Shown piece by piece: positions 1 to 63,644 of a stretch of 64,000 nucleotides of DNA (positions within the stretch are counted from its first letter, which is position 1; every line of letters starts with the position of its first letter). Origin of the DNA: Candidatus Thorarchaeota archaeon SMTZ1-45. GTDB lineage: Archaea; Asgardarchaeota; Thorarchaeia; Thorarchaeales; Thorarchaeaceae. Location: contig LRSL01000058.1 of NCBI GenBank assembly GCA_001563335.1, positions 1 through 64,000 of the forward strand, read 5' to 3'. The translations under genes and the position numbers were made by a program. The notes under the pieces were generated by a model. It saw only the letters and a list, made by a program, of their open reading frames with translations, was not told the origin of the DNA and ran no database searches.

Positions 1-52
1 AAAGCGTGAAATAGAAAACACTACTGTCCCTACTAAAGGTAGTACCTCAATA

Positions 53-8000: not shown

Positions 8001-11000
8001 ACCAAAACACGACAATAAGGTACTCCAAGTACGAGCTAGGGTCGCAGGAAGTCCAACAGATTTGTATATTGGTACAAATCCAATTGCAACACCCTATGGA
8101 GAGAATATAACATTCTCTGTTGTATACTGGGATGTTAGTAATAGCACTGGAGTTTCAAATAGTACAGGTGCTTACCCATTCAATGTTTTCTTGTTTGTAG
8201 AAGTTAAAACACCCGGTCAAACCTTAACACAAGACCTAATGGTAATTACTGAACTAGGAAATGGTGAATACCAGATTACCTTTGATACAGACTATCTAAG
8301 TGGTTTAATTGGATGCCAGCTTCGGATTTATGCAAATTGGACTAGCGGCCAGCTTCCTTTGTATGAAAACAGAACACTAGCAATCATAGTGTATACTCGG
8401 TATCGACAGACAAGTGTTCTATGGAATCCCTTGCCAACTACGCCATATGGTGATAGTGTAAATCTGACATTTTCTTACATGGATGTACTATCAGGTATGC
8501 GAATCCCTGATGATGCAAAATTGAACTATCAAGTCCAAGAGGCAGGACTTGTCTTGAGTGCGATTTACTTGAGTGGTAGTCAACAGTTTGTACTCACACT
8601 TGATACAACATGGTGGAATAATGTTGGCACATTCACATTTCATCTAGATGTTACATGGTCAGGATCTCCATTCTATCAAAACAGAACTAACATCCCGATT
8701 TCAATTACAATTCGCAATAGATACACTACTCTTGAACACGGTCCCTATACTTCAATTCAATATGGTAACAATTTAACACTCATCTTCACATATAGAGACC
8801 TCGATGGACAATCATTGTTGAACACTGGATCACTTACGCTTGATCCATCACTACTGGGTTATTATAGTGTAGTGAATAATTTTGATGGAACATATAAGGT
8901 AACACTCAATACGACTGCATTTCCATCTCTCGGTATTTTTACAGTAAATGTCACTATTACATATACAGGTTTCAATTACTGCTATGATGCAAACGATTTC
9001 TTCTATCTGACGCTAATTCAAAGAAGAACACAATTGACTAGCGAAACTCCAGACCTAGCTATATTTCTAGAAGAAGCGGTGATAATAGTATCATATATTG
9101 ATGATAATACATATGCAGCAATTCTTGGTGCGACAGTAACCGCGACCTGCATGAATGCAACACTTCAGCTTGGAGTCAACTATTGGGTCGATGCTCTTCC
9201 AAGTGGGGACTATCGAATCAGAATCTCAACACTTGCTCTTGGTAACTTTGGTCAATATACTATCACTATTTCTGCTAGTAAGGCTGGATCACCATTTTAT
9301 AGAAGCAGAGTGCTAGATGTTTCAATTGATGTCGTTAGAAGGTATGCGACTATTTCAGTTACTCGTTCCCCATTGACTACACCGTTCCTTGAGAATGTTG
9401 AATTCCAAGTGACCGCAATCGATGATGTCAACGGTACCAGAATACCTCTTTCTAAGTCAGTACTCATTATAACACATGGAGGAGGCACACTCATACTAGA
9501 TTCTGAGTACACACTCACAGGTCAGAATGGCTTCTATCTGATATCCTTCAACTCGACACTACTGACTTCTCAATTAGAAGATGCCTATCCAATCAACATC
9601 CTCTTCTATTGGGGTGACTCAGCGCCTTATTATGAAAATTCAACCGCTTCTACTGAAGTCACAATTTCAACAAGATTCACTCAAGCATCGGTCCTATCAA
9701 CTCCTCCTGCATATTACTTCTTCAATATCAGTACTCTAATCTATTATAGCGATTATCTGACTGGAAATGGGATTCCTGGAGCCGATATCTCGGTTGATTG
9801 TGCTAACTCTACAAGTTTCACAAATTGGATAGTTGATCAAGGAGATGGAACATATCAGATTCTTGTTGATACAACGACACTCACTGGACTAGGGAAGTAT
9901 TTCTTTACTGTGAATTTGACTTGGTATGGAACTCCATTCTACACAAATGTGACTAACTTGAATTTTGCAGTGGTAGTCAATTCTGTATCTACTACACTTA
10001 GCTTTACACTTCCACAGGGAGTAACCTATTACTTGGGTGATGATATTCATGCGAATATCACCTTTACCGCAATTGAGTTTGGTGTTGGGATTTCAGGTGC
10101 AAATGTCACAAGTAATTGGAATATCACCTATCCAACAATCGCCACAATCACCGAGATAGATATTGGCGTTTATGAAATGATTATCCAGACTTCAGGAATG
10201 GATGCTGGCCTATATTCGTTTTCAATTTCTGCTTCAAAATATCTACATCAAAATCAATCCATACTGGCTGATATCCTATTGGCTGCGATACCTGTTCAGA
10301 TAGAACTCTTTTTCAATCCAACAAATCCACTTTGGGGTAATGCTATTGATTTTCAAGCAAATGTCACTGATGCAAGAAATGGGAATCCAATTTCTGGAGC
10401 ATTCGTCAATCTTACAATATCCTCAATAACCGTGAATATGACACCAGGTGCACCAGGAATATACACTTGCACTATACAGAGTTGGCAGATAGGCGCAGGA
10501 GAGCACACGATTCGAGTGGTTTCGGTTCTTCTTAATTATGAGAGTAGACAAAGAGATTTCCAAATACGTATTGATAAGATCTCATCAAAGATTTCAGGCT
10601 CCCTTGATCCGCTTACTACTGTTAATGGATTAGCAGTCACAATAGAAGTGGATTATCTTGACTACGCAAACAGTTCTGTAATCGAAGATGGTCTTGTTAC
10701 CTATAGCTGGATTGGTGGTTCAGGCCAGATTGTTTGGTCTGTCATTGATGACAAATATGTAGTGCAGTTTGTTGTTTCAGGAGTTCCAGTAGGGACTCAC
10801 CAAATCCTCATTCAAGCATCATCTGATAACTACAAGAGTATAAGCATGCAACTAACAATTGAGATTACTGAACTTTCCACAAGTCTGATTGCTATCTCCG
10901 AATTCATTGTTACAGTAAACTATCGGGACATAGCAAACATTACAGTATATCTTAACAACACTGATCTGAATACACCAGTGACTGGAGCATTACTATCATA

Positions 11001-12747
11001 CGGAGTAGGACCATTAGTAGGTAATCTCTCCGAACTAGGAGTTGCTGGTTATTACAGTGCTCTAGTAGACACCTCTGGTTTGAGCGTTCAAGAATGGACT
11101 GTTATAATTTCAAGCGACAAAGCAGGATATACTCCTTCATCAATCCAATTCACTTTGACAGTGGAAGTGGTTGACACTGAAATTATAATTGTAACTCCAG
11201 CCACAGTAAGTGGTTACTACGGTGAAGAGGTCACATTTGTCTTTGTTTTCAGTGACACTCATGCTGATGAAGGAATACCTGGAGCAATTACAAACTATAC
11301 TCTGGAACAATTCAGAGGGTCTCTCATTGATTATGGTAATGGTACATATTCTCTTACATTGAATACATCACTTGTACGGGCGGGAAGTGTACCTCATGAC
11401 ATAACTATCTCATTTAGAAAAGATAACTACAGATTTGCATCTGGTCTTGTGAAGCTTCTCGTGAATCCAATTCGAACCCAGATTATTGGAAACTCAGAAG
11501 CAGAGTTTCCTGTTTATGATGACTATACTATGTTATTCAATTTCTGGGATGATTTGAATGAAAGGTGGATAGTAGATGGGTCAGCAACAGCATACTGGGA
11601 ATTTGGAACTGTTCAATTAACTAATCTTCTTAACGGTTCCTATGCTTTCGGTCCTACTGAAACGAACTTAACTACACCATTACAAGATAGAACAACGCCC
11701 TATGAAATCAGAGTTTCAATATCTAGAGGTAACTATTCTCTTGGGCAAATCCAGGTCTTTTTGTCAATACGTGAGATTGCTACTGAATTAGTTGCATCTG
11801 TACTTCCTACTCCAATCTATGTAGGTAGCCTTTTCCTGATTAATGTCACATTCTTTGACTTAGATCATTCTGAAGCGATCTCTGGTGCAGAAATTTCGAT
11901 CGTATCAAGAAGCAATCTCGCAACTTCAAGTATAATTCGAGAAACAGATTTTGATATCGATCATGGGAATGGAACTTACACTCTTGCATTCCGAGCTCCA
12001 GATTTAGCATATTACAGTTTGCAAATAATCCTTAGCAAGGTTGATTATCAAACTGCAATAGCTGAATTCGATATCTATCCCGAATTAACTCCAGAGCAAG
12101 AAGCACTTGTAATGGGATTCCAATGGAGTACAATACTCATCCTCCTTCTAGCAGCTCTGGGTGCTTTGTATTTCAGAGTATTATCAATTCCAAAGCTACT
12201 GCGAATCATAAGACGGATGATTAGAACTCTAGAAAGAGGTAATATTCCAAAACCAGCAGATGTGCCTCAAAGAAGACAAATGATACTCTCTATGATGAAC
12301 GAGGATTTGAAACCGGTTGGGCTCCAGAAATATGTTGATGATGTAAGTCTCTCAACAGTTGATGTAACAGTGATGGATGTTGAGAAACTGTTAGATGATT
12401 TAGCAGTAGTAGTTGGTCTTACACCAGAAGACATCGATACGTTACGTCAAGACCTTGATAAGATGAGACCAAGTGAAAGAGCAGGTTTCATCAATGAAGT
12501 GCTACGACAAGAACGTTCACGTCGCGCACGAGAACTCACTGAAGCTGAGAGAATCTCAGAAATTGGTGTTCCTGAACCAGAGGCTGAGGAACGCTTGTCT
12601 GAGGAAGAATTGGCTCATTTGAAAGTACGGTTACTGAATATGGGCATTGAAGAAACCGAAGCTGACCTCATGATAGAACAAGCCCGAAACTTGTCGAAGG
12701 CGGAAATAGAAGCACTTCTTAAAGAGATTGGAGGGATGGAAGAATGA
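5038..12747 (+). CDS. giant cell-surface protein (2569 aa) with tandem Ig-like beta-sandwich repeats, C-terminal TM and cytoplasmic tail
   Basis: Signal-like N-terminus; many ~90-110-aa repeats (e.g. TTPYGENITFSVVYWD...GNGEYQITFDT...LTWSGSPFYQNRT); TM (WSTILILLLAALGALYFRVL); charged helical tail. Confidence 0.85.
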   Translation: MKLKKNLSLFLVLTSLILSFGAIGVNNNIHQSITPSSELIDIGDGQYIEVGPDEVLETISLSEVPTNLQGEGSPLVISEYGQRTNHFDNLELAYYPTNTTTTQMVSVPLGPLWEGTDMFVNVSDLQENRTYLTNPGFDSTADWTLGTDDVGTYTNPMSSTITGGYVSFQMEGVLSGGYYRHDLGDRQYAEQTINTNRGEVTWVGVSLDYWVDDAWGGLPIGFWELYAQVGHDDDVDNHLWHMQFSDVLAQVTWYSTGLIEADPSLITSSSFILQIGMRTTRSFGSNPQLYPEVRMDNVRIFIKSRVQPSQVNLEMNGLPVSNITDGFSWLWSLGSVQESAVIPWSGSAVNATFSWTPTPVNPNPNFDIRVTFSVDMTVYARKVGQSSLYEADVQSFGTHYSVSNSSQVQWLTYYYVAVPNGYSNFFYFNASKSDTLVIDMVSQPRFPSVNFPYWSTTATTLNISVYEGVVGTYQNGFWKITGHSGNIIQDLRMSSGAAWVTTNTYQANDNVRFRAYLDSVYDGATVSFKVYDTMGTLWATLSAGVSSGIAETTDLTLDPYLAEVGGWQVQAFVNDSISGSPVENIGYYSRSFSIEHGSDMYIAYPRQSIFTWERNLTYGQDMLLQIGVNDSDNGFLLPGGSATYNWTTGTHPLNDMGTGEYSVVLNTADLGLPGRYVISLTWSKSYYDSLQRYFVINVVEETTLQSASAPGVQVPRGDDALLELFFADSEGSGIDNAVLFCNWTDSSYSIDPVIGEPGNYSLSITTNNSNLGTYAIVVTAQKDYYTTSQVLLFVEVRQIFTSVSVSQSILALPVGYEETITLTYWDTDHDLPISGAESSISCNWSDYTVVESSPGEYDITFSSLDSDPIQDYTVVFDVSRFAYQNHTFDIGINIITHLTSFSLDNPIEPTPYTGQITIYVLYYDITTSSGIVGSDVLIYAEAAGVPSLQFTVVNGTTQGQYIIRIRADQWGSIGWKDITIFANWTGSQPKHDNKVLQVRARVAGSPTDLYIGTNPIATPYGENITFSVVYWDVSNSTGVSNSTGAYPFNVFLFVEVKTPGQTLTQDLMVITELGNGEYQITFDTDYLSGLIGCQLRIYANWTSGQLPLYENRTLAIIVYTRYRQTSVLWNPLPTTPYGDSVNLTFSYMDVLSGMRIPDDAKLNYQVQEAGLVLSAIYLSGSQQFVLTLDTTWWNNVGTFTFHLDVTWSGSPFYQNRTNIPISITIRNRYTTLEHGPYTSIQYGNNLTLIFTYRDLDGQSLLNTGSLTLDPSLLGYYSVVNNFDGTYKVTLNTTAFPSLGIFTVNVTITYTGFNYCYDANDFFYLTLIQRRTQLTSETPDLAIFLEEAVIIVSYIDDNTYAAILGATVTATCMNATLQLGVNYWVDALPSGDYRIRISTLALGNFGQYTITISASKAGSPFYRSRVLDVSIDVVRRYATISVTRSPLTTPFLENVEFQVTAIDDVNGTRIPLSKSVLIITHGGGTLILDSEYTLTGQNGFYLISFNSTLLTSQLEDAYPINILFYWGDSAPYYENSTASTEVTISTRFTQASVLSTPPAYYFFNISTLIYYSDYLTGNGIPGADISVDCANSTSFTNWIVDQGDGTYQILVDTTTLTGLGKYFFTVNLTWYGTPFYTNVTNLNFAVVVNSVSTTLSFTLPQGVTYYLGDDIHANITFTAIEFGVGISGANVTSNWNITYPTIATITEIDIGVYEMIIQTSGMDAGLYSFSISASKYLHQNQSILADILLAAIPVQIELFFNPTNPLWGNAIDFQANVTDARNGNPISGAFVNLTISSITVNMTPGAPGIYTCTIQSWQIGAGEHTIRVVSVLLNYESRQRDFQIRIDKISSKISGSLDPLTTVNGLAVTIEVDYLDYANSSVIEDGLVTYSWIGGSGQIVWSVIDDKYVVQFVVSGVPVGTHQILIQASSDNYKSISMQLTIEITELSTSLIAISEFIVTVNYRDIANITVYLNNTDLNTPVTGALLSYGVGPLVGNLSELGVAGYYSALVDTSGLSVQEWTVIISSDKAGYTPSSIQFTLTVEVVDTEIIIVTPATVSGYYGEEVTFVFVFSDTHADEGIPGAITNYTLEQFRGSLIDYGNGTYSLTLNTSLVRAGSVPHDITISFRKDNYRFASGLVKLLVNPIRTQIIGNSEAEFPVYDDYTMLFNFWDDLNERWIVDGSATAYWEFGTVQLTNLLNGSYAFGPTETNLTTPLQDRTTPYEIRVSISRGNYSLGQIQVFLSIREIATELVASVLPTPIYVGSLFLINVTFFDLDHSEAISGAEISIVSRSNLATSSIIRETDFDIDHGNGTYTLAFRAPDLAYYSLQIILSKVDYQTAIAEFDIYPELTPEQEALVMGFQWSTILILLLAALGALYFRVLSIPKLLRIIRRMIRTLERGNIPKPADVPQRRQMILSMMNEDLKPVGLQKYVDDVSLSTVDVTVMDVEKLLDDLAVVVGLTPEDIDTLRQDLDKMRPSERAGFINEVLRQERSRRARELTEAERISEIGVPEPEAEERLSEEELAHLKVRLLNMGIEETEADLMIEQARNLSKAEIEALLKEIGGMEE

Positions 12748-15700
12748 AATTCAGACAGAAGCTACCAATATTGATGTTTGTCACATTCCTAATGGTCTTT
12801 AATACAATAGTAATGATTTCAAATCCACAAACATCATTGAACCCGCTGACGTCAGAATTGCCTTCAAAAACTCAAGATGTAAGATCGACGAATCCCTTGT
12901 TTGAACCTCACTCAAGCTATCTAAATTCTGAACAAGGTTGGACCATGTGGTCTGGGGTTTCCTCTGGGCTACCTGCGCAAGAGTTTGGTAATAGAAGCGA
13001 TGTATTTGTTGATAATCAAATGCGGTATTTCGAAACCAATAGCAGCACAAGTAACACCTCTATTTCTATACCAATGGAAACAGGCTGGGAAGGTCACGAA
13101 TTATTTGTAGAAATCACAGATTTGACTGAAAACAGAACATGGGTTCAAGATCCTGACATGGAGAACAGTCCCTCGAGTTGGACATTAAATCAAGTGAGCC
13201 TTGGAGGTGGTGCTGCTCCTTCCGCTTCTTGGGTTAATAATGGCCATGGAGCTGGTGATGATTGTGTTGAATTCGAAATCGCAGAAGGTGGTGACCCCTA
13301 TTTTGAGGAACGCGCGTGGGCTGAACAGACATTCTCGGTGAATCGTGGTGATGTAGTGTGGGCTGGGTTCAGGCTCGATTATTGGATTGAATCCGACTGG
13401 GGCGCTGATGGTTTTGTTGCGATCTTTGTTTCAATAGAAACAAACGATTATACCCAACGAGTATGGCAGAAGTCCTTTTCTGATGTGGATCAGGAGCAGA
13501 TCTGGTATGATAGTGGATTGATTGTTCTATCTGACTTATCCATCTTCGATTTGTCTGATGGTGTAACAATCACAGTAGGTCTCTATAGCCAACAAACAGT
13601 CAACTACAGTCCTGACCTAAATCCATATGCTCGGGTTGACAATGTAGAGCTATATCTTCAGACAAAGGCAAATCCAAGTGACCTCAACCTGAAGATGAAT
13701 GGACTTGATGTAGATGATTATGATATTGGGGGAACTTCTGTGCCAGGGTTAGGTAACATCACTCAAATCCCGATACCGACTTGGACAACGAGTCCTGTTG
13801 ACGTGTCCTTTTCTTGGACTCCAATCCCCTCTACACCTAATCCAGACCGCGATATTTGGGTTGATTTCAACGTTGAAACCAATCTCTATGCAAGAGGTCC
13901 ATCGACCACACTTACAACACAAGATCCAAACTCATATGGAGAGATTTTCGAAGCTGTCAATGCTTCAGTGATTGAGTACTTAACATGGTTCTTCGCTGAT
14001 ATTCCTGATGGCTATGATAATAGATACTACTTCAATATCTCACTGCCTGAAAATCGCGATGTATCCTATGTTGCATCACCATTACTTACCAATGTGAATA
14101 TTTCATCATGGGATGAAGGACATGGACCTGAATGGTACGCAAATATTACAGCATATCCGTATCCTGATAAATGGGGGTATTGGCTCATCAAAAGTAAAGG
14201 CGCAAACATGATCACTGATCTTTTAATGACCAGTCCCACAATTGGTACTTCTGCAAGAAGTATTGATCTTAGAGCATCCGATTCAGCATATTTCTCTGTG
14301 GATGTCGGTGCTCAATTTGCAGGCGTTGCGGTGAATATCACACTGTTTTCACCATCCGGAGCCAATTGGTATTCAGAAATAGTTACAGTCAATAGCACAG
14401 GTTATGCTAACTCAGTAGAACTAACCTTTGGCACTAATGCCACCGCAGGAGAATGGCTTGTTCAAGCATTCTGTAATAATAGCATTAGCGGATCAAATTG
14501 GAACAAGACCGGATTCTTCCATCGAACATTCAATATTATACATGCTTCAACATCCACGTTATTGAACCCCGCAGATGCAATTTCAACTTGGATAACTAAT
14601 GTAACATACCCTGATCTCTTCTTGGTGAGAATACGTATCAATGATTCCGATATTTCAGGAGTGACTGTTTCTGGTGGACAGATGAGTTATAACTGGACTA
14701 CTGGAACACAGTATTTTGGAGAGGCTGGGAACGGAGAATATCTAATTACACTTGATTCAGGTGATTTACCTCAGAAGGGTCAATATATGCTGAATATAGA
14801 ATGGACACATCCCCATTTCGACACAATCCAAGAAGAACTTACTATCAATCTCAATTTTGATGGGGCTCTTGTTCTTGAAGCTCCAGATTCTCCTGGTTTG
14901 TCAATCCCTTCAGGATATAATGGATCTTTCAGAATAGGATTTGAGGATTATCTCGGGACACCCATTGACACTGGAAGTGTCGATTGCAACTGGTCCAGCT
15001 ACTATAGTGTTACACCTGTAACTGGATCGCCTGGTAGTTACCTATTCTGGCTAAATACAACATTTATGGATATGGGCGAATATGTTGTTGAAGTTACAGG
15101 AACTGCGCCATTCATATTGCCTCAGAGATATCTCCTCTATGTTGAGGTTCGGGAACTATACACAAAGGTAACGTATTTGCAAAATGTTGTGAATATACCC
15201 GTTGGAGAATCTCGTTCACTAACATTCACATGGACTGATGCAGACCATAACACTCCTCTAACTGGCTTTAATGACTCAATTCTCTGTGATTGGACCGGAT
15301 CATATAGCATTATTGAAACAACACCAGGAACGTATAGCCTGACCATTTTCACAACAGATCTAACTCCTCTCGGGACCACTTCTGTAACTATAACTTTCTC
15401 AGGTTCAATGATGCAAAATCATACTATTTCCATCCAAGTTATAGTCAGGTCTCATACCACATTGTTCACCCTTGACGAACCAGTTCCTCAGACATCCTAT
15501 GGAGTTGATGCCTTCATACTCGTCTACTATCTCGATACTGATCTAGGTACTGGTATTGACAATAGTTCAGGCTATGTTCACATCTTGGTAACGACTCCTG
15601 AAATTCCTATCCTGAGTTACACGGTCACAGATTTGGGATCAGGGCATTATAATATAACTGTACCAACTGGACAATGGTCCACAATTGGATGGAAAAGCTT

Positions 15701-18700
15701 TGCAATCCAGATTAGCTGGACTGGTTCAGTCCAAAAACTACAATCTAAATCGTTGAATACATCCTTTAGATTAATTGGTACTCAAACTGATTTGTATCTT
15801 GAAACTGCACCGGTTGCCACTTATTATTTGGATAACTTCACTTTCTCCGCAGTATTTTATGATGTAGTTAATTCTACTTACATATCAAATGCTTCTGGTG
15901 CTGTATCAATATCCTACACACCAATTGGAATCAATCCAGTCACAGGTGATGATTTCTTCCTAGAAATCATCATAGATGGTCCAACTGTGTACTATATGTT
16001 CCACCTGAACAGTACCCGTCTTGAAGGGATTGGCATGTTTGAGGTCGAACTAGGATTTCTATGGAAGAGTGGAGTTCTCCCGCTATATGAGAATCAAACT
16101 ATCAATGTATTCCTAATGGTACTCGAACGTCCAACTTATGTTGACTATACTCAAGTACCTCCAACAGCCTATGGCGAAGATGCAAACCTAGTCTTTTCCT
16201 ATTTAGATTCTATTCGAACAGAAAGAATTCCTGATTCTCCATCATTAAGCATTGACATTAATGAAGGTGGCATATCTTGGTCATACTCCTATGATTCAGT
16301 TTCTAAAGAATTCACAATTACAATTGACACTTCCTCTCTTGGTGGAATAGGTCAGATAACACTTCACCTCAACCTGACCTGGATCGGCACACCCTTCTAT
16401 GCGGATGTGCCAAATCAACAGTTTATTGTAATTGTGTTATTGAGAAGCTCTCAATTAACTCATCTGCCATTTACTCCTGGTCAGTGGGGGAACAATGTCA
16501 CAATCGAGTTTGTCTATACGGATCTCATATCTGGAAGTACGACTGGAATGGTTGGCACCCTAACCTTGGATATTGACGAGTCTTACTATTCAGTGACTCC
16601 TGGCATTGATGGGCATTATACTGTCATTCTCAATTCTTCAATACTTGGAGTGCCAGGACTCTATTATATCAATGCAAGTATAGTCTATGGAGGAGCCAAT
16701 TATGTGAGTGATGCATTCGAGTATTTTGCATTCACTGTCCTCGAAAGGTCAACACAAATGGGATATGAGAGTCCGGATAATGCACCTTATCTAACGAATC
16801 TAACATTTATCGTCACATATAGTGACGATTCTACTGGATCTGGAATTACTGGTGCCACAGTACAAGTCACGAGTGATCCACTCACATTAGTACTCGGAGT
16901 CGACTATTGGGTTACTGATAATGGTCTTGGTGAATATCTCATTGAAGTTGACACATCCGCGTTGGGTCCACCAGCAACCTATCAATTGAATGTAACAGTG
17001 TCTTATTCTGGAGCACCATATTACCTTACTTCTCAGAGAACATTATCAGCAATGGTTGTTGAGCGTCCAACTCAAATTCGAATCATTAAAACTCCAGGCA
17101 ACACACCGTTTCTTGAGAATGTTACATTCAGTTTTGTCTTTGAAGATTTCCTAGACAAGTCTTTCATTACCATAGACAAGAGTCACATTACTTTGAGTCA
17201 CGGAGTTTTACATACTCTGATAACCTCAAGCGAATATAGTCTGGTGAATCTTGGATCACACTATAGAATTAGCTTCAACTCAACAGTATTAGACCCACTT
17301 GGTCTCGTATCGAGTCATAGCATACAGCTCTCAATCGATTGGACTTCTGGATCACCATATTACGCAGATAGGAATACATCAACTCAAGCGACAACGACAT
17401 ATCGTCCAACAGTCATTTTGTTCCCACTGGTTGAGGAAACTCCTTACTTCGATAACATTACGATAAATCTGGAATTCAAGGACTATCTTACAGGGATTGG
17501 TATAGATGGTGCTTCAGTGGTATTATCAACTTACAATTGGTCTGGTCCAGCATATCATCTCATTAGATTTGGTAATGGCGTCTATCAACTCGTTGTGAAT
17601 ACCACTGTATTTGGTTCAACCGGAACAGTCTATTTCAACGTTTCATTCACATGGAGTGGAGTTCCATTCTACTCAAATCGAGAGGCCATAAATGTCAGAG
17701 CACAGATAAGATCAGTTCAGACATCGTTAATAGCTGAAGCACCCCCAGCTGGTTCTACAGCTATCGGTGTTCCAATCGTGGTCACTTTGACACTTCTTGA
17801 TTTTGATCATGATACTTATCTTGAAGGAGCAACAATAGATTGCGACTGGACAGATATAACCGGGAATTCATTTGGATGGGTTGAGGAAAGTGGTGGGACT
17901 TACTCAATCACTCTGGAAACTCTTGGTCTCGTTGCTCAACAATATGTCTTCATAGTTACTGCATCAAAAGCATTCTATCAGACTGCTCAAGCTCAAGTCA
18001 CTGTCCAACCAGGAGCACAGTTGGTTGAGATTGTACTCACACGAACAACCTATTATGCTGATTGGGGTGAAATTCTAAATATCAGCTTCTGGATCCAAGA
18101 ACCATTTTACATGACATATGTCGAAGGTTTCAATGCAAGTCTTCTGTGGGATGGTGAACTCTATTACTTCATTGATGTAGGTACAGGCTTTTATTATCTG
18201 ATGCTTGATACAGCAGATTCAGATTTTGGTATTTACAGTCCACAAATCACAGTATCAAGAGAATTCTATCAAACTAGACAGAAATCCTTCACGTTAGTTG
18301 TATCGAAAGCTCCTGGTCAGATAATACCCTTTCAATCCACATACAGTGCTGTCATTGACACCATTATCAGCTTCCAAGTCTATCTGAATAATACAATCAC
18401 TAATGCTCCAGTTGTAGGTGCCAGTGTCTCTCTTGAATGGAATGGAACAGTTTCTCCAATGACTCCAACCGGGGTTCCAGGATGGTACACAGGATCGGCA
18501 AATGTCACTGGATTTGCTATTGGGCATTATCCAGTCACTATTAGAGCTGTTACAACTAATCTGCAATTCATAGAAACTGATATTGACATTAACGTGATTC
18601 CAATCCCTACAACTCTTGCGCTAGCTGATGGTACAACAATCCGGTATGTATTCTTTGGTGATACATTATCACTTTTAGCTGTCTATAACGACACATACCA

Positions 18701-20426
18701 TGATGCTCTAGTTGTTGGGGCAACAGTATCGTACACACTTGGAAGTCTAAGTGGATTCTTTACTGATGAATTAAATGGAACATATAGTATCACAATTGAT
18801 GTTAGCTCACTTGGTTCACAATCCATCTACCTGCGAATGGTGGCTAACAAGGCGGGATACGCAACTGCTATCAAATCTATAGTCGTGACTATCCTGCCAA
18901 TTCCAACACAGGCATATGCAACACCACTTCTACAAAGTGGGTACTTGGGAGATACACTTTCCTACCTATTCTATTATAATGATACTCAACACAACTCGCT
19001 AATCGTTGGAGCAAATGTACTAGCTAGCTGGGAAGGTGGTGATGCATTAGTCACTTCTCATCCCAATGGATCATATGAGGTAGTCGTACAAATCAATGTA
19101 GAGAATCCTGGACTATATGATCTAGTTGTCCGATTTGACCTCACGAATTACACCTCCCGAACTGTCATTGCTAAAATTGAAATATATGCAACTCCTGCTG
19201 AGATTAGAGGACCAATATTCTATTCAGCACCAATTAATGAGCCGACTAGCATTATTTACAATGTCATAAGTCTGATTGACAATTCATCAATTACTGATAT
19301 CATTGGAATCGCATACTCCACTCAGCTGGCGGATATTGAGCTTGAACTCTTAGCAAATGGATCGTATTCATTGAATTTGGCTGGAGACCTTCCATATGGA
19401 ACATATAGCTTTGATATAGCATTTGAAACTATAAAATACTCCATCGCTCCAATATATCTTGAAGTAACAATAAGACAAATACGGACCTCTTTGATTTCCG
19501 ATTCCGATGAAATTTTCACATCTCCAGGTAGAACTTTCAATATTACATTGACATACTATGATCTTGACCACTTGGTTGGAATATCCGGGGCTGACATCTT
19601 TGTGGATTATAGCCATACCAATATCACATATCTCAACAGTTCAACGATAGAAACAGATGGCACCTACAGGCTGTTCTTTAGAGTAGAAGGAAGCAGAACT
19701 TTCACTATCACAATCATGTTCCAGAAAGAGGACTATGAATCACGACAATTGGTTGTAACAATAAAGTCCGACATATCTCCTCAACAACAATTCGAGCAAC
19801 TATTGACAGTAGGTGGTGGATCAGCTCTAATTCTAGTTGCACTACTCATTGTTCTATATGTCCGAGTGTGGAGCGTTCCCAAGCAAGTCAGAGAATTGAA
19901 TAGGATGATTCGAGCTTTGGCAAAAGGTCGAGTTCCAAGACCTGCTCGTGCTCCTGGCAGACAAGACATGGCTATGGAAATTGTGAATGAAGAAATAGAC
20001 TCATTAAGGCTCTACAAAGATTCTGATGAGGTTGCGGAATATCCAATTATAACAACAGTACCTGAAGTCAATGAACTCCTTGAAGAATTGGCTGCCATTA
20101 CAGGGCTCGGTGCTGCTGAGATTGATGCTTTCAGAGCAGATCTTGCCAGAATGAGAGCCAGTGAGCGTCCAGGCTTTCTCAAAGAGGTCATTGACCAAGA
20201 AAAAGCTCGTCGTGCTGATGTGTTAGCCAAACCTCCAGAAGAAGAGCCTGCTCCAGAAGAGGTTCCTCTTGAACAGAGACCTGAAGAGTTAGATGATTTG
20301 CGCCAGAAACTCCTAAAGAAAGGTATGGCTGCTGAAGAAATCGATGTCATAGTTGAAGAGGCGAAGAGTCTTTCAAAGGCGGATCTTGACGCCCTTCTAA
20401 GTAGTCTGGGTATAGACTTAGATTAG
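12744..20426 (+). CDS. giant cell-surface protein (2560 aa), tandem paralogue of the upstream gene
   Basis: Same architecture; overlaps the upstream ORF by 4 nt (ATGA); cytoplasmic tail similar to the upstream paralogue. Confidence 0.85.
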   Translation: MKFRQKLPILMFVTFLMVFNTIVMISNPQTSLNPLTSELPSKTQDVRSTNPLFEPHSSYLNSEQGWTMWSGVSSGLPAQEFGNRSDVFVDNQMRYFETNSSTSNTSISIPMETGWEGHELFVEITDLTENRTWVQDPDMENSPSSWTLNQVSLGGGAAPSASWVNNGHGAGDDCVEFEIAEGGDPYFEERAWAEQTFSVNRGDVVWAGFRLDYWIESDWGADGFVAIFVSIETNDYTQRVWQKSFSDVDQEQIWYDSGLIVLSDLSIFDLSDGVTITVGLYSQQTVNYSPDLNPYARVDNVELYLQTKANPSDLNLKMNGLDVDDYDIGGTSVPGLGNITQIPIPTWTTSPVDVSFSWTPIPSTPNPDRDIWVDFNVETNLYARGPSTTLTTQDPNSYGEIFEAVNASVIEYLTWFFADIPDGYDNRYYFNISLPENRDVSYVASPLLTNVNISSWDEGHGPEWYANITAYPYPDKWGYWLIKSKGANMITDLLMTSPTIGTSARSIDLRASDSAYFSVDVGAQFAGVAVNITLFSPSGANWYSEIVTVNSTGYANSVELTFGTNATAGEWLVQAFCNNSISGSNWNKTGFFHRTFNIIHASTSTLLNPADAISTWITNVTYPDLFLVRIRINDSDISGVTVSGGQMSYNWTTGTQYFGEAGNGEYLITLDSGDLPQKGQYMLNIEWTHPHFDTIQEELTINLNFDGALVLEAPDSPGLSIPSGYNGSFRIGFEDYLGTPIDTGSVDCNWSSYYSVTPVTGSPGSYLFWLNTTFMDMGEYVVEVTGTAPFILPQRYLLYVEVRELYTKVTYLQNVVNIPVGESRSLTFTWTDADHNTPLTGFNDSILCDWTGSYSIIETTPGTYSLTIFTTDLTPLGTTSVTITFSGSMMQNHTISIQVIVRSHTTLFTLDEPVPQTSYGVDAFILVYYLDTDLGTGIDNSSGYVHILVTTPEIPILSYTVTDLGSGHYNITVPTGQWSTIGWKSFAIQISWTGSVQKLQSKSLNTSFRLIGTQTDLYLETAPVATYYLDNFTFSAVFYDVVNSTYISNASGAVSISYTPIGINPVTGDDFFLEIIIDGPTVYYMFHLNSTRLEGIGMFEVELGFLWKSGVLPLYENQTINVFLMVLERPTYVDYTQVPPTAYGEDANLVFSYLDSIRTERIPDSPSLSIDINEGGISWSYSYDSVSKEFTITIDTSSLGGIGQITLHLNLTWIGTPFYADVPNQQFIVIVLLRSSQLTHLPFTPGQWGNNVTIEFVYTDLISGSTTGMVGTLTLDIDESYYSVTPGIDGHYTVILNSSILGVPGLYYINASIVYGGANYVSDAFEYFAFTVLERSTQMGYESPDNAPYLTNLTFIVTYSDDSTGSGITGATVQVTSDPLTLVLGVDYWVTDNGLGEYLIEVDTSALGPPATYQLNVTVSYSGAPYYLTSQRTLSAMVVERPTQIRIIKTPGNTPFLENVTFSFVFEDFLDKSFITIDKSHITLSHGVLHTLITSSEYSLVNLGSHYRISFNSTVLDPLGLVSSHSIQLSIDWTSGSPYYADRNTSTQATTTYRPTVILFPLVEETPYFDNITINLEFKDYLTGIGIDGASVVLSTYNWSGPAYHLIRFGNGVYQLVVNTTVFGSTGTVYFNVSFTWSGVPFYSNREAINVRAQIRSVQTSLIAEAPPAGSTAIGVPIVVTLTLLDFDHDTYLEGATIDCDWTDITGNSFGWVEESGGTYSITLETLGLVAQQYVFIVTASKAFYQTAQAQVTVQPGAQLVEIVLTRTTYYADWGEILNISFWIQEPFYMTYVEGFNASLLWDGELYYFIDVGTGFYYLMLDTADSDFGIYSPQITVSREFYQTRQKSFTLVVSKAPGQIIPFQSTYSAVIDTIISFQVYLNNTITNAPVVGASVSLEWNGTVSPMTPTGVPGWYTGSANVTGFAIGHYPVTIRAVTTNLQFIETDIDINVIPIPTTLALADGTTIRYVFFGDTLSLLAVYNDTYHDALVVGATVSYTLGSLSGFFTDELNGTYSITIDVSSLGSQSIYLRMVANKAGYATAIKSIVVTILPIPTQAYATPLLQSGYLGDTLSYLFYYNDTQHNSLIVGANVLASWEGGDALVTSHPNGSYEVVVQINVENPGLYDLVVRFDLTNYTSRTVIAKIEIYATPAEIRGPIFYSAPINEPTSIIYNVISLIDNSSITDIIGIAYSTQLADIELELLANGSYSLNLAGDLPYGTYSFDIAFETIKYSIAPIYLEVTIRQIRTSLISDSDEIFTSPGRTFNITLTYYDLDHLVGISGADIFVDYSHTNITYLNSSTIETDGTYRLFFRVEGSRTFTITIMFQKEDYESRQLVVTIKSDISPQQQFEQLLTVGGGSALILVALLIVLYVRVWSVPKQVRELNRMIRALAKGRVPRPARAPGRQDMAMEIVNEEIDSLRLYKDSDEVAEYPIITTVPEVNELLEELAAITGLGAAEIDAFRADLARMRASERPGFLKEVIDQEKARRADVLAKPPEEEPAPEEVPLEQRPEELDDLRQKLLKKGMAAEEIDVIVEEAKSLSKADLDALLSSLGIDLD

Positions 20427-54803: not shown

Positions 54804-55034
54804 CTCTCGTTGTTACCCTCATATCTGATTTTATCTTGAAGAAAGATAACTCTTAGCCATAACCTTGATTTTAAATTGATAAAAAGGGGTGTTTGAATAG
54901 CGGCGTATACCAACGAATAATTGCCATCATGATTAAAGAACCAAATCAAACATTATTCAATTTAGATTAGGTGGTTTACAGGAGTATGTTATATTATATC
55001 TCAATCTGGGCTTAAATGGGCTTGTAATTTTTTT

Positions 55035-55111
55035 GTACACGTTGTCAATTTATCATTGTAAACGTTGATGAGATGATGTGACTTATCCGTAAGAATTCAG
55101 TGTAAACGTTA
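55035..55111. repeat. three GTA(A/C)ACGTT(G/A) direct repeats
   Basis: GTACACGTTG 55035-55044, GTAAACGTTG 55058-55067, GTAAACGTTA 55102-55111. Confidence 0.75.
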
Positions 55112-55289
55112 AGCTATTTCGCGCCATTCAAAAAGAGTGGAAGCTAGAACTCTAATGTATAAGCCTATTTGTATCGTATTTTCTTATTTCTATATTGATT
55201 TGTATTGATTATAGCCTAAAAAATCTCAATTTGTATTGTAATAGGCAACTTTCATAGAATGGAATATGGCGCGAAAAGCTTGCGTTTAC
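55102..55289. repeat. long imperfect inverted repeat flanking an AT-rich core
   Basis: GTAAACGTTAAGCTATTTCGCGCCATTC (from 55102) vs reverse complement of GAATATGGCGCGAAAAGCTTGCGTTTAC (to 55289); perfect core TTTCGCGCCAT/ATGGCGCGAAA. Confidence 0.75.
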
Positions 55290-55364
55290 TATAGAAACCC
55301 TATTTCTTTATATTTGGGATAGCGTGTACTCTCTTTTGTCTACCGCCGGGAGGGTACGACACAT

Positions 55365-55634
55365 ATGATGATGTTCAGCAGAATGCTCAGACGACAGGGT
55401 TTCTATCGAGTTAAAAACCAAGACGACCCAGTATACATGAAGCACGGGGTTGGACTTGGTGGTATTTATGTGAGGATTGAACACAAAAAAGCGTTGATAC
55501 AGGTTCGAGATCTTGGAATTGAAGAAGAGTTCACCAAGGTCAAGAAGCTTGAGAATTTTATCAATGAACTTGAAGATCAAGCGTATCGTGAGAAGTGTTT
55601 CATTGTCCATCGAATGCGAGGCACTGGGTCCTAA
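55365..55634 (+). CDS. hypothetical protein (89 aa)
   Basis: ORF with plausible promoter; no recognised family. Confidence 0.5.
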   Translation: MMMFSRMLRRQGFYRVKNQDDPVYMKHGVGLGGIYVRIEHKKALIQVRDLGIEEEFTKVKKLENFINELEDQAYREKCFIVHRMRGTGS

Positions 55635-55676
55635 TTCTCCTCTCTCTCTTTACTGGCCTGGCGAAAACTCGCTGGG

Positions 55677-55706
55677 CCACTCTCACTCTAACTATTTTGA
55701 GAGTGG
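55677..55706. terminator. hairpin between 55365 ORF and HEAT-like gene
   Basis: CCACTCTCA-CTCTAACTATTT-TGAGAGTGG, 9-bp perfect stem. Confidence 0.4.
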
Positions 55707-55733
55707 TTCTTATACTAAACCACAGAATCCAGT

Positions 55734-57140
55734 ATGGGGCAGAATGTGAGAGATACCGTTGTTTCATTTCTTCGTGCAATCAACAATGGTGATTATGTTG
55801 CAGCTTTTTCTATTCTTGACAAGATAGTTACTGTAGGTGAAGTGGAACTCTTCTCTATGATGTTAGAACAAATTATTCTGTGGGAAGGCAATCCTTCACG
55901 CTACAAATTGAAAGTTCGTGATTGTATTGCAGAATATCTTGGATTTGGAGCTGTGTATTTTGCTATTTTGAAGCCTTCATATGCTATATTCAAAATGGTG
56001 TCCGGAGTTTCAAGTAGAAAGGAAGCGCGAGATTTTCTAATTCAAACCGTCATAGAATTGGTCACGAAAAATTCTCCCCTTGTCGATTTATCGTTTGTAG
56101 AAATAGATACACTGAAAGAAACGCCCTATGTCGTCCTAATCCCATACACATTATCAAAAAGAGCCTATGAGCTAGAAGGCTGTAAAATTCCATATTCATA
56201 TCATCTCTCTACTTCTGGTGAGGAACTGAAACATAGATATTGTCTTGCAGATCTTCAACAGACTCACTATGGAAGGAAAATTCTGAATGCGTTCAATTTC
56301 GATGGTGATTATCCAATAATAGGACAATCTGACTTTTTAATACTCCAAGAGATTTTGCAGTCTTTCGGGTATGATGTGAGTTCAATGATGGTCGAAGTGT
56401 CTGAGGAAGATTGGTCCCAGCTCATCATGAAGAGAGTTCAATATCTTGGACTAAAGTGTAGGGAATCAGATGAAATGTGGCTCCTTCACACAACCTACAT
56501 GGCAATGATAAGATTTGGATCTGAGGACATCAATATACGGGAAGAAGCTCTTAGAACTATTGAGGAGGTCGAAACCAAACATTGTAATGACGCGTTAGTA
56601 CCATTACTTGGAAATGGTACAAAGTCTTTGAATTTGAGAGTAATTAGGATATTCGAATCTACACATGATTATTCAAAGATAGATTGTTTGTGTAGTCTGA
56701 TTCCTGAATCAACTGGTGCTGAAAGGGAATCACTCTTCAAAGCTATCTCGGTCATTGAGTCGGCTCAATATTTCACACCTGGTGGAATTCCTTCAGCTCA
56801 ACCAAGAATTGAAACGTCTACTGAAATACATAATCAAGAAGTGACTTCAAGATATCTAGAAGCTTTGAGCAAGCTCTCAAAAGCATCATCTCCCGATGCT
56901 AAAATTGACTCCGTTCAAGCATTATCTGCATTTCAAGAAAAAGGAATAGAGAATCATCTCCGACGACTCATGGATGATGAAAATCCAAGAGTTAGATTTG
57001 CTGTACTGGAAGCTAGTCATGATCTCCCAAAAAATCAAGCAGCAGATCTTGTCCGTTTGGGACTACAAGATGATGATGCTACAATTAAGAATAAAGCTCT
57101 AGACCTCCTTGAAGAAAGATGGTCAGATAGCTATTTGTAA
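55734..57140 (+). CDS. protein with C-terminal HEAT-like repeats
   Basis: LRRLMDDENPRVRFAVLEASHDLPKNQAADLVRLGLQDDDATIKNKALDLLEERW. Confidence 0.65.
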   Translation: MGQNVRDTVVSFLRAINNGDYVAAFSILDKIVTVGEVELFSMMLEQIILWEGNPSRYKLKVRDCIAEYLGFGAVYFAILKPSYAIFKMVSGVSSRKEARDFLIQTVIELVTKNSPLVDLSFVEIDTLKETPYVVLIPYTLSKRAYELEGCKIPYSYHLSTSGEELKHRYCLADLQQTHYGRKILNAFNFDGDYPIIGQSDFLILQEILQSFGYDVSSMMVEVSEEDWSQLIMKRVQYLGLKCRESDEMWLLHTTYMAMIRFGSEDINIREEALRTIEEVETKHCNDALVPLLGNGTKSLNLRVIRIFESTHDYSKIDCLCSLIPESTGAERESLFKAISVIESAQYFTPGGIPSAQPRIETSTEIHNQEVTSRYLEALSKLSKASSPDAKIDSVQALSAFQEKGIENHLRRLMDDENPRVRFAVLEASHDLPKNQAADLVRLGLQDDDATIKNKALDLLEERWSDSYL

Positions 57141-57198
57141 AGCCAAAGAAAAGAAATAAAATAGCTAGCTATTTGTTGCTTGTTGAAGCTCTGAAGTA

Positions 57199-58401
57199 TC
57201 AAGCCTTTCTTAATTTTGAAACCAAATATCTTGGGGCAGCTGCAAGAATTGCACTTCTGACTGGTCGTATTCCAGCAAGCATCTCTGCAATTATTCGAGT
57301 TGTTCTCTCTGAACTCAGAAATGTAGTGCCCAACGAACTTGATCCTGATTCAAGGAATCGTTTTTGCAACCAGAGCCCCCACTTAAGATCAGAACCAAAT
57401 GAGCTAGTCCATAATCGTTCATATCTAGATAGGCGATTGTCTGAAAAGTCTTTTTTTTGAATGCAATCTGCTGCAACATCGGCAGCACTATGGCCACCTA
57501 ACATGGAATAGTAAATACCCTCTCCTGTAATGGGTGAACAATGACACGCAGCATCTCCTGCAAGCATAATCCGGTTACCATATGAGGGTTTGACTATTCC
57601 TGCTAGAGGCATTAATGCAGCCTCTCTATTCACAAGCTCCGCTCTTGCATTCTGGAGTTCACTGGATGTAGGCTTCTTGTTTTCAACGAGTTCATCCAAA
57701 TATGATATTGTTCTCTTCTTGCTCGTTCTAACTATTTCCACTATACCTCCAGTACCCAAAACGGTTTCATATTTGCGAGGAAATGACCAAGCATACCCCC
57801 TCGGAGAAAATTCACTCCCATAATAGAAATCATTCACAATTTCTAGTGGGTACTTTGTTTTCATTTGGTATTGAACAGCATATCCTATTTGTGAATTCAT
57901 AGGTCGACTTCTTACTGGTGTAAATCGAATCGTAACTGGGTTTACACCACTTGCATCAATGATGAGATGTGATGATAGTAAACCAGTTTCATTTCCCTTC
58001 GTGTATCTTACTGTACATTTATCCTTGGTAGCTTCTGTTTCCCCACATTCGGTGTTAAGCCAAATCTCTTCAGAGCTTGTTTCTATTTGATTCAAAAGTG
58101 TTACACCTAGAACTTCTCGGCTGACGTTTACTCCAACTCGGTTTTCAAAATCAACTCTTTTCATTTCAAGTCCAGGGAACTTCATTCTGATTGATTTGAC
58201 ATCATGAGCGCTGGGGATTTGTTCCAGTCCAAATTCTTCTAACGCTCGAGCAGGAATATATCCTCCACATGCCTTGTAAGCTCCTGGTTTGTCCTCTCTT
58301 GAAATCAACGTGTACTCTATTCCATATTCTGAAAGCCTTTTCGCAGCTGAAAGTCCTGCAGGTCCTGCCCCAATTATTATTACATCTGTATCTACAGTCA
58401 T
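57199..58401 (-). CDS. geranylgeranyl reductase family FAD-dependent oxidoreductase
   Basis: IIIGAGPAGLSAAKRLSEYG...KACGGYIPARALEEFGL...LAGDAACHCSPITGEGIYYSMLGG. Confidence 0.92.
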   Translation of the reverse strand: MTVDTDVIIIGAGPAGLSAAKRLSEYGIEYTLISREDKPGAYKACGGYIPARALEEFGLEQIPSAHDVKSIRMKFPGLEMKRVDFENRVGVNVSREVLGVTLLNQIETSSEEIWLNTECGETEATKDKCTVRYTKGNETGLLSSHLIIDASGVNPVTIRFTPVRSRPMNSQIGYAVQYQMKTKYPLEIVNDFYYGSEFSPRGYAWSFPRKYETVLGTGGIVEIVRTSKKRTISYLDELVENKKPTSSELQNARAELVNREAALMPLAGIVKPSYGNRIMLAGDAACHCSPITGEGIYYSMLGGHSAADVAADCIQKKDFSDNRLSRYERLWTSSFGSDLKWGLWLQKRFLESGSSSLGTTFLSSERTTRIIAEMLAGIRPVRSAILAAAPRYLVSKLRKA

Positions 58402-58454
58402 TCTTCTAGATGTTTTCTTGTGAAATGGTCCTAATATTTTTGGTCTAAATGATA

Positions 58455-58764
58455 GTAAACGTTAGAATTGTCTGAAATCATTTTAGCAAGATTTGCGTGT
58501 ACTGACCTATGTTTTCTTCAAGGAGGGGTGTACCCCTGGCCAGCAAGGGGTGATTTTCTCGGTCAGTACACGCTTGCTCGCTATTTCCGTTTAAGTACAC
58601 GTTGGTTTTTTTTGAGGAGCACATCATGAAGGGAGGAGAGAAACTGAGTCGAGAAAGTATGAAACTGTACTCGGACGCGAGATCTTTACTCCGGCTGATG
58701 CTACGCGACTATTTCAGGAGTGTGAAACAGAGCGTTTACTACATGTTATTGATGTACACCTTGG
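58455..58764. repeat. second cluster of GTA(A/C)AC(G/C) motifs, both orientations
   Basis: 58455-58464, 58496-58502 (rc), 58566-58572, 58595-58604, 58733-58739 (rc), 58754-58760 (GTACACC variant). Confidence 0.75.
58495..58573. repeat. 13-bp perfect inverted repeat with nested GC-rich hairpin
   Basis: GCGTGTACTGACC 58495-58507 / GGTCAGTACACGC 58561-58573; inside, ACCCCT-GGCCAGCA-AGGGGT. Confidence 0.8.
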
Positions 58765-58781
58765 TATATTGGACCTTGTAA
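58626..58781 (+). CDS. possible small ORF (51 aa), below ORF-track cutoff
   Basis: ATG preceded by GAGGAGC; MKGGEKLSRESMKLYSDARSLLRLMLRDYFRSVKQSVYYMLLMYTLVYWTL*. Confidence 0.25.
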   Translation: MKGGEKLSRESMKLYSDARSLLRLMLRDYFRSVKQSVYYMLLMYTLVYWTL

Positions 58782-59997
58782 TATCTAGAACATTGTATCT
58801 AACAATAGATCGTGTATCTCATTAGTCAAGATGGGCTTGTTTTGTAGAGTGATAATGGCAAAGATCGATATTTACTACCCTTCAGGAAAGCATTTAGAAA
58901 TGAATTTCAGAGAGTTTTTTGGGTGTATTAACTTTTTTCGATAAGTTAACAATAGTTTAATCATTATAGTCTTATCGCTCAATTCTTGTCGATTTTTCGA
59001 AAGTTTTATTTAAACAATTAATTTTATTTTACAATAATTGTCTAAATAATAATTATTCCTATATTTGGTACAAATAATACCATTATAAGGAATTACGAGG
59101 CACTATCAAATTATTAAAGATCCATAGGTAAAATCTTTGGTATTGAATCTATGCCAAACTAAATACTATCAAGAGATCATAATCTAACCAACATTGTTGC
59201 TTGTTATTTTTCCACATACTCAATTTTCGTATTATATACATCATTATATAGAAACATCATTAAAGAAGCAGGGTTATTTACGCCAAAATGTAGTAGTACA
59301 CGCATATTGAGTATGAGTGTATGCTTATTATAGCAATTCATTCTATATCTATATTTGATAATCGAATATAAGTAAATTAGAGAAAATAATGTGTATATCT
59401 ATAAATCAGTAATTTTGAATAAGATGAATCGAATATTGTTTTTCATTTTATTGGCGCATTTATATCTGATTCAATTATGAGTTCCTCTATATAGTTAATA
59501 ATAGAATATATTAGGGGTATTAATTGAAATATATTAAATATATAACTAAAATATTTAATAATCAATTAATTATTAAAAATATAACCACTCAGTAAATAAT
59601 CGCTTTCGATTTTTCGAAAACTCAAGAAAAAATAGTAGATGTCATTTGAAATGGCAGATCGTCATTTCTAATAACAGGTCAATAATCCTTTAATTTAAAC
59701 GCAATCGAACCCATTAAAACGTGCTTGATACTACCTAAACGACTCATAACACTGCTAATTACAAATGATTTGCTTTCATGCAAAGTAGTATTCTTCTATA
59801 GACAATATTGTGTAATAGCTTGCGAGAATATTTTCGTCAATACTCAGTCGCATATTCATTTATTTGTAGAATCGACGTGTACAATTCTGCCATCGTAAGG
59901 GACAGAGAGCAATGTCGCACACCAGCAGTTAGATACAAACTCTATTAACATTGTAATCCTCCCGTGATAGACACAATTCCAAGGTTGGAATAGCCAT

Positions 59998-60360
59998 ATG
60001 GTCACAATCTTCATAGTTGATGATGAGGCGATTCTTCATAGACTCTACAAAGATGTCTTCAGCATCAAAGGACACGAAGTTGTGGCAGATGCATATGATG
60101 GGTCTGAAGCAATTGAGAAATTCAGTGCTTTAGATCCTAAACCTGAAGTCATCATTTTAGACCATCGCATGCCCAATAAAGATGGCCTCCAAGCGATGAA
60201 AGAAATCCTTGAGATTGATCCCAAAGCTAAGATTGTTTTCATCAGTGCTGATGCAAATGTAAGGGAACAGGCTATGAACAAAGGTGCAGCAAGTTTTGGT
60301 CTGAAACCTGTGACTATTCGTCACATGCTAGACCTCGTTGAGAGTGCTGTGTCTGATTGA
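59998..60360 (+). CDS. CheY-like response regulator receiver protein
   Basis: IFIVDDEAILHRL, phosphoacceptor VIILDHRMPNKDG, FISADA, LKPVT. Confidence 0.9.
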   Translation: MVTIFIVDDEAILHRLYKDVFSIKGHEVVADAYDGSEAIEKFSALDPKPEVIILDHRMPNKDGLQAMKEILEIDPKAKIVFISADANVREQAMNKGAASFGLKPVTIRHMLDLVESAVSD

Positions 60361-62924: not shown

Positions 62925-63644
62925 CTATTCTATATCGACTATAATTTTGGTATCATCATCAGAATCTCTATCCTCTGATTGCTGAGGTTTCTCTGATAAC
63001 ATACTCTCGAATAGCCTAAGTGCTTCCTTAACTGTACTTGCCCACGCTTCTTCTCGTTCTTGGATAGAATCGTCCACCTGTTGGCGAATCGGATCGATGA
63101 GCGACCTCACTTTCTGACAGCTTTCTTCATCCCATTCTGCATATTCCATGATGGTTTCTATCTGCCTTATTATCTGGCTTCGAATAGATGCAAACCGCAT
63201 TCTTTCCTCATCAAGATTCTCAAGTCTTTTATTGACTTTACCAAGCTCACGAAGGAGTTTTCTGACTGCTGTTACATCTGGTCTTGCTTCAGGGATAACA
63301 AATCCCTGTGGAACAATTAGACGCGTTCCTGTTCTTCCATGACTTGTGAGCCTGACTACAAAGGCATCAGGGAGGATTGTTGTTGAAAGACCAAAACGAA
63401 CATTGAGACGATAGTAGACTCTATCGGGTCCAACTTCACTCTCTCCATGTTCACGTTCAACCAATCCTGCGTCTTGAAGTGCTTCAAGATGTTTAAACAC
63501 ACCACGCGGAGTTAGACCTAGCACTTTGCTCAACTCGTAGGGATATCTCTCACCTTGTGCTAAAAGACGAAGAATTCTCCTGCGTGTTTCGTTTCCTAAA
63601 GCCTTGAAGACTTTGTCAAGATCACTTGGTCCTTCTTGTGTCAA
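62925..63644 (-). CDS. ArsR-like winged-helix transcriptional regulator
   Basis: DLDKVFKALGNETRRRILRLLAQGERYPYELSKVLGLTPRGVFKHLEALQDAGLVERE. Confidence 0.88.
   Translation of the reverse strand: MTQEGPSDLDKVFKALGNETRRRILRLLAQGERYPYELSKVLGLTPRGVFKHLEALQDAGLVEREHGESEVGPDRVYYRLNVRFGLSTTILPDAFVVRLTSHGRTGTRLIVPQGFVIPEARPDVTAVRKLLRELGKVNKRLENLDEERMRFASIRSQIIRQIETIMEYAEWDEESCQKVRSLIDPIRQQVDDSIQEREEAWASTVKEALRLFESMLSEKPQQSEDRDSDDDTKIIVDIE

Follow-up and report, generated by a model that had tools for sequence, protein, structure and literature searches.

What is the role of a short motif, GTAMACG (M being A or C), that recurs in two AT-rich intergenic regions of an Asgard archaeon? The motif lies in the first 64,000 nucleotides of contig LRSL01000058.1 (hereafter the window) of Candidatus Thorarchaeota archaeon SMTZ1-45, a metagenome-assembled genome (MAG), and a preliminary description of this DNA had proposed an origin of replication, a partition site or a regulatory locus. 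Here, we report that the motif forms two conserved arrays, each linked to one gene: array 1 precedes a gene for an 89-aa protein (F3), where its boxes are held at fixed distances from a TATA-box-like element, and array 2 precedes a gene of the FAD-dependent geranylgeranyl-reductase family (F0). These GTAMACGY boxes are probably the operator arrays of a predicted sequence-specific regulator in the family of the host. A search of the open-access literature found nothing on the GTAMACGY box or on such cis-regulatory arrays in Thorarchaeota, and nothing relevant on the motif or on Asgard origins.

Clustering and conservation of the GTAMACG motif

An exact scan of both orientations showed that the window has 14 copies of GTAMACG and that these are confined to 55035-59882. 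Shuffled versions of the window held a mean of 4.8 copies (standard deviation 2.0) over their whole length, and none of 100 shuffles reached 14. The SMTZ1-45 genome as a whole carries 263 copies in 3,544,182 bp (119 contigs), a rate from which 0.36 copies are expected in the 4.85-kb cluster region and which gives 14 copies there a Poisson probability of ~1e-17. The genome-wide count thus bears out both the clustering and the earlier estimate of less than one expected copy. All twelve sites that had been listed are present at their coordinates, including the variant GTACACC at 58754, and several copies do extend to GTAMACGTTG: four of the seven such sequences in the genome lie in the cluster region. 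Three further copies, all in reverse-complement orientation, had been missed. Those at 58125 and 58309 are inside coding sequence, that of the gene at 57199-58401, and the one at 55323 ranks among the best conserved boxes in the comparison with relatives.

Eleven boxes, at 55035, 55058, 55102, 55283, 55323, 58455, 58496, 58566, 58595, 58733 and 58754, occur at orthologous positions in related genomes and make up the two arrays, array 1 (55035-55329) and array 2 (58455-58760). By the same test, the copies at 58125, 58309, 59296 and 59876 are chance or coding copies. The expected conservation therefore holds for the eleven boxes but fails for 59296 and 59876, and what the preliminary description took together has two distinct parts: beside the GTAMACG arrays there is an AT-rich element, at 58990-59620, in which the motif copies lack conservation. 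In the pooled boxes of array 1, whose first seven positions are GTAMACG by definition, a pyrimidine (C or T) follows at position 8 (0.8 bit) and position 9 leans towards T (0.3 bit); outside GTAMACGY the positions are near background. Across 16 genomes of the genus, direct box pairs within 45 bp belong to array 1 or array 2; the exceptions are three isolated pairs and, on a second contig of genome G001, one further pair that resembles array 2.

Array 1 and the promoter of the 89-aa gene

The comparison of array 1 covered 22 genomes from the genus and family of SMTZ1-45, itself included. Its features are as follows.

55035-55041, + strand: box s1, GTACACG; exact in 12 of 22 genomes, at -326 to -336 from the ATG
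55058-55064, + strand: box s2, GTAAACG; exact in 19 of 22 genomes
55102-55108, + strand: box s3, GTAAACG; exact in 20 of 22 genomes
55283-55289, - strand: box s4 (CGTTTAC on the + strand), 17 bp before the TATA box; exact in 22 of 22 genomes
55307-55313, + strand: putative TATA box of the 89-aa gene, TTTATAT; 17-18 bp from s4 and 8-9 bp from s5 in 22 of 22 genomes
55323-55329, - strand: box s5 (CGTGTAC on the + strand), between the TATA box and the start codon; exact in 21 of 22 genomes
55365-55634, + strand: target gene F3, 89-aa protein, downstream of array 1

The offsets of array 1 to F3 are kept in the 22 genomes while the flanking letters diverge. Every promoter follows the layout s4-17/18-TTTATAT-8/9-s5-16..21-GGGAGG-14..18-ATG, in which s4 and s5 bracket the TATA box and their distances to it are constant within 1 bp. 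Each of two complete Thorarchaeal chromosomes has a single spaced s4-s5 pair of this kind, located at F3. Boxes s1-s3 face s4-s5 across ~173 bp of 31% GC, and the distance between the facing boxes s3 and s4 ranges from 155 to 184 bp among the genomes; an inverted repeat, GTAAACG..AGCTATTTCGCGCC / GGCGCGAAAAGCTTGCGTTTAC, extends these facing ends in G000 and the genomes closest to it. The 89-aa protein itself has 84% mean column identity within the family and homologues of 29-41% identity in other Asgard families. It has no Pfam or NCBIfam match, and its fold, predicted with confidence only in the best of five models, resembles nothing in the PDB.

Beside s3 and s4 lie elements of the only other noteworthy kind in array 1, which resemble the eukaryotic E2F box (TTTSSCGC).

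55117-55124, + strand: E2F-box-like element TTTCGCGC, just downstream of s3; WTYSGCGC type in 22 of 22 upstream regions
55269-55276, - strand: inverted E2F-box-like element (GCGCGAAA on the + strand); in 9 of 15 genus-level upstream regions, the window included

With this relaxed consensus, WTYSGCGC was found near s3 in all 22 F3 upstream regions and in 4 of 240 background windows. Its variants beside s3 are TTTCGCGC, TTTGGCGC, TTCCGCGC and ATTCGCGC, and the inverted partner near s4 is present in part of the genus. E2F homologues have been reported in Asgard genomes (PMC7617429), and the complete Thorarchaeota chromosome G040 encodes a 204-aa E2F/DP winged-helix protein (L106:4963-5577, - strand; RRIYDV; Pfam PF02319, E2F_TDP, E=1.3e-8). 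Since TTTSGCGC is not clearly enriched in the intergenic DNA of the sampled chromosome (0.049 versus 0.036 per kb) and E2F-like boxes upstream of orc1 are lacking in SMTZ1-45, with isolated partial matches only among relatives, we offer possible E2F control of the F3 promoter as a testable lead only. The question of pre-eukaryotic E2F-type control could be addressed on this one promoter, in a lineage that has an E2F/DP protein.

Array 2 and the geranylgeranyl-reductase-family gene

The second array lies upstream of F0 and comprises the following features.

57199-58401, - strand: target gene F0, FAD-dependent geranylgeranyl-reductase family (TIGR02032, E=8.7e-52)
58455-58461, + strand: box proximal to the F0 start, conserved in relatives
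58495-58573, no strand assigned: dyad GCGTGTACTGACC / GGTCAGTACACGC around the boxes at 58496 (reverse complement) and 58566; the arms co-vary outside the boxes
58595-58601, + strand: box GTACACG, conserved in relatives
58733-58739, - strand: box (CGTTTAC on the + strand); the right-edge element ends 51 bp further on
58754-58760, + strand: GTACACC, taken as a degenerate box because three relatives carry a full GTACACG or GTAAACG there
58765-58783, + strand: right-edge element TATATTGGACCTTGTAATA, conserved in most array 2 loci

Array 2 precedes F0 in about 20 relatives. It stays with F0 where that gene is inverted or separated from F3 (L068), and the two lie together on another contig in L197 and L202; its position is also kept where another gene, for an AIRC-domain protein, heads the operon (L072, L075). 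On its other side it is retained next to different cargo genes, such as an M54 peptidase or, in four genomes, a tyrosine recombinase. The latter, XerA-like and apparently inserted near the AT-rich desert, was seen beside array 2 in L208, L202, L282 and L283; since only these four close genomes have it, it was rejected as a part of the array 2 system and is considered a lineage-specific insertion. A coding explanation for the right edge of the array (open reading frame (ORF) 58602-58781) was likewise discarded, with in-frame stops in several relatives as judged by eye.

The five bases beyond each box of the dyad match their partners at 68 of 115 positions, compared with 40 (standard deviation 5) after shuffling, and none of 5000 shuffles of the arms among genomes equalled this value. 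The dyad is therefore maintained; G-U and A-C mismatches are equal in number (12/12), and the matching does not indicate that it acts as RNA.

A proposed regulator acting at two promoters

Among the roles proposed earlier, that of a regulatory locus has good support at both motif clusters, with their fixed TATA geometry at F3 and with each array following its own gene. The regulator would recognize GTAMACGY arrayed in two promoters only, those of F3 and F0. Because s4 and s5 bracket the TATA box, a protein bound there would be expected to interfere with, or to assist, TBP, TFB and RNA polymerase at F3. The distal boxes s1-s3 lie in the opposite orientation ~180 bp upstream across an AT-rich spacer, an arrangement that would let the proteins at the two groups of boxes meet through looping of the DNA. 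Upstream of the reductase gene, array 2 may act likewise. As to the mode of control at F3, repression is our guess, because s5 sits 9 bp downstream of the TATA box, before the expected transcript start. If this model is right, a defined box, a promoter of fixed geometry and two target genes would provide a handle for isolating an Asgard transcription regulator.

Several observations weigh against the operator model. With only two targets, the predicted regulator would have a regulon that is small in view of such elaborate arrays. The other observations concern array 2: its F0-proximal box is lost in L062, L064 and L083 with the remainder of the array kept, a 172-aa ORF separates it from F0 in L208, it runs ~350 bp beyond the F0 promoter with a conserved right edge of its own, and the co-variation of its arms as a dyad would be superfluous for a plain operator.

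The AT-rich non-coding element

Beyond array 2, the AT-rich desert is organized as follows.

58989-59002, + strand: left flanking box TCGATTTTTCGAAA, outside the GTAMACG system
59215-59370, + strand: rigid core, CATACTCA, 93 bp, TGAGTATG, 43 bp, hairpin; conserved in relatives
59606-59619, + strand: right flanking box TCGATTTTTCGAAA, the same repeat as the left box

The repeat noticed earlier at 58989 and 59606 is real, and CGATTTTTCGAAA is found nowhere else in the SMTZ1-45 genome. Between the two boxes the GC content is 0.23, and there is no credible ORF. In four genomes of the genus, a CGATTTTTCG box stands at either end of the element, 615-619 bp apart; the boxes are in direct orientation, or inverted in other relatives, and several relatives have a GGTACA..TGTACC dyad. 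The 93-bp spacing of CATACTCA and TGAGTATG recurs in nearly every homologue, with the hairpin 43 bp after TGAGTATG. The core was found in 24 of 228 genomes of the phylum, all of one family and usually as a single copy per genome. Where the block with the response-regulator gene (59998) is inverted away from array 2, the element remains upstream of that gene. At 59296, many relatives read GTACACAC or ATACACA in place of GTAMACG, and the copy at 59876 is not kept in relatives either. Both copies fall outside the GTAMACG system. The AT-rich desert is a separate, family-specific conserved non-coding element, distinct from the arrays. The candidate roles of this single-copy, spacing-locked locus are those of a chromosome-maintenance site (origin or centromere), of a non-coding RNA, or of a region that controls the response regulator at long range.

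Three proposals concerning this element were rejected. A 38-aa ORF in the core (59194-59310) showed equal conservation at the three codon positions (0.69, 0.70, 0.69) and in-frame stops in 9 of 22 sequences; an extended RNA stem between CATACTCA and TGAGTATG had 20 A-C and 35 other mismatches; and a second CGATTTTTCG near orc1-2 on contig C69 falls inside a coding ORF. In G001, two copies of the core with array-2-like boxes were seen on different contigs (C150 and C166; L230, L240), a duplicate that is likely to reflect contamination by a second Thorarchaeon (the MAG is given with 7% contamination).

Regions upstream of the orc1 genes

Upstream of Thorarchaeal orc1-1 genes there are ORB-like repeats (ORB, origin recognition box), for example GTTCCATAGGTTCCAGTGGAAATCCACAGGAA, and the boxes of Orc1 therefore appear to lie there. 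At L025, L089 and L156-L167 the region holds TTCCAGTGGA repeats with a conserved GGTAATACCTACTCTTA upstream. We regard the orc1-1 upstream region as a candidate for the true Thorarchaeal origin. Strand skew was sampled over 46% of the G040 chromosome and half of that of G039. In the G040 sample, skew shows no pole at array 1 (P=0.67), and TA skew at fourfold sites gives a weak one at orc1-1 (P=0.03; scan P=0.08). In G039 no pole is visible at the arrays within the half covered, and GC skew and gene direction gave no signal. The skew check that had been suggested for an origin at the motif thus found no pole at the arrays in either sampled complete chromosome.

Upstream of orc1-2 (L026, L091, L092, L172, L179-L181), a strongly conserved stretch of ~100 nt, GGCGAGTGATGA..GATGAGTC..ATGATATGGATCTTGAGTTAGGAGCTCGCC, lies between a tRNA-like 3' end and the gene; it looks like a C/D-box small RNA or another non-coding RNA. 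Elsewhere in the window, two giant ORFs (2569 and 2560 aa) lie side by side at 5038-20426 on the + strand, and a putative ArsR-like DNA-binding protein is encoded at 62925-63644.

Alternative explanations

Could the locus nevertheless serve the chromosome rather than two promoters? Archaeal origins contain ORBs that bear a G-string, are bound by Orc and often stand in inverted orientation on the two sides of an AT-rich DNA unwinding element (PMC7776575); such origins usually adjoin an orc1 gene (PMC7617429). Both arrays and the desert together could accordingly be imagined as a chromosomal origin bound by Orc1 or another initiator, with boxes pointing inward across the unwinding element. Array 1 does have its boxes inverted around an AT-rich tract, in the manner of ORBs, there is one such locus per complete chromosome, and the desert, at 23% GC, has conserved flanking boxes. 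However, GTAMACGY shows no similarity to the ORB and no flanking information, and ORB core, G-string and an adjacent orc1 are all absent at the arrays, in line with the earlier remark that the motif is unlike known ORBs. The orc1 genes of SMTZ1-45 are on contig C69, another contig than the arrays, and those of two complete Thorarchaeal chromosomes lie 0.25-0.55 Mb from them. On the complete chromosome CP070658.1, orc1-1 is at 0.78 Mb and the arrays and desert are at 1.284-1.287 Mb. The arrays follow their own genes in rearranged genomes and so separate from each other, and a TATA box lies between two of the boxes in array 1. With ORB-like TTCCAGTGGA repeats upstream of orc1-1 and no skew pole at the arrays in the sampled parts of two chromosomes, the origin proposed for the motif in the preliminary description is not supported, and we consider it very unlikely. 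The arrays could also form a centromere-like partition locus of the parS/SegB type: each genome has one site-rich locus, with two arrays a few kilobases apart and several dyads, and ParA/ParB homologues have been reported in Asgard genomes (PMC7617429). No par or seg gene was present among the neighbouring genes, to which the scan was limited, and the fixed TATA geometry and the travelling of the arrays with F3 and F0 argue against this function, which is highly improbable. A broader version, which joins array 1, array 2 and the rigid AT-rich element with its CGATTTTTCG boundaries into a single site for maintenance of the Thorarchaeal chromosome (a centromere, or an origin that does not depend on Orc1), or in which the same control extends to a new large non-coding RNA formed by the AT-rich element, seems rather unlikely.

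The co-varying arms of the array 2 dyad raise a different alternative, that array 2, the desert or both are structured non-coding RNAs and that the array 2 boxes are halves of RNA stems. The terminal hairpin of the desert core keeps its pairing (37 G-U versus 12 A-C cells), and in several genomes the desert homologues fold better than their shuffled sequences, with z-scores of -2.9 (window, + strand), -6.1 (L072, + strand) and -5.1 (L081, + strand), where controls average -0.5. Yet z is ~0 in L054 (+ strand) and L056, there is no consistent strand preference, and stem 1 of the desert is unsupported. The equality of G-U and A-C in the array 2 arms also speaks against RNA stems, as do the variation of box position M between A and C without compensation and the presence of the same box in array 1 without that hairpin. 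No Rfam family was found for array 2 or the desert, the matches to curated covariance models being sub-threshold and attributable to chance. We therefore regard this explanation as unlikely, and operator arrays at the F3 and F0 promoters as the preferred reading of the GTAMACGY boxes.

Comparison with known systems

The locus shares features with four known systems. As with parS/SegB sites, there is a single site-rich locus per chromosome, but the boxes here are tied to promoters and no partition gene was found among the neighbours scanned. Archaeal oriC regions with ORBs (Sulfolobus, Haloferax, Pyrococcus) likewise contain multiple short, directional boxes, some of which are inverted across an intergenic AT-rich tract; those described here lack the ORB core, the G-string and an adjacent orc1, and are instead fixed in position relative to a TATA box and a start codon. 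The eukaryotic E2F box is resembled by the WTYSGCGC element near s3 in 22 of 22 genomes, and a Thorarchaeal E2F/DP winged-helix protein exists, although many of the array 1 copies deviate (TTCC, ATTC). In the general repressor layout of archaeal TATA-bracketing operators, boxes are situated just upstream of the TFB recognition element (BRE)/TATA box and between the TATA box and the transcript start, as in array 1. The arrays here differ from such operators in comprising five to six boxes, with distal inverted boxes ~180 bp away, in the asymmetry of their 7-8 bp box, and in serving only two targets.

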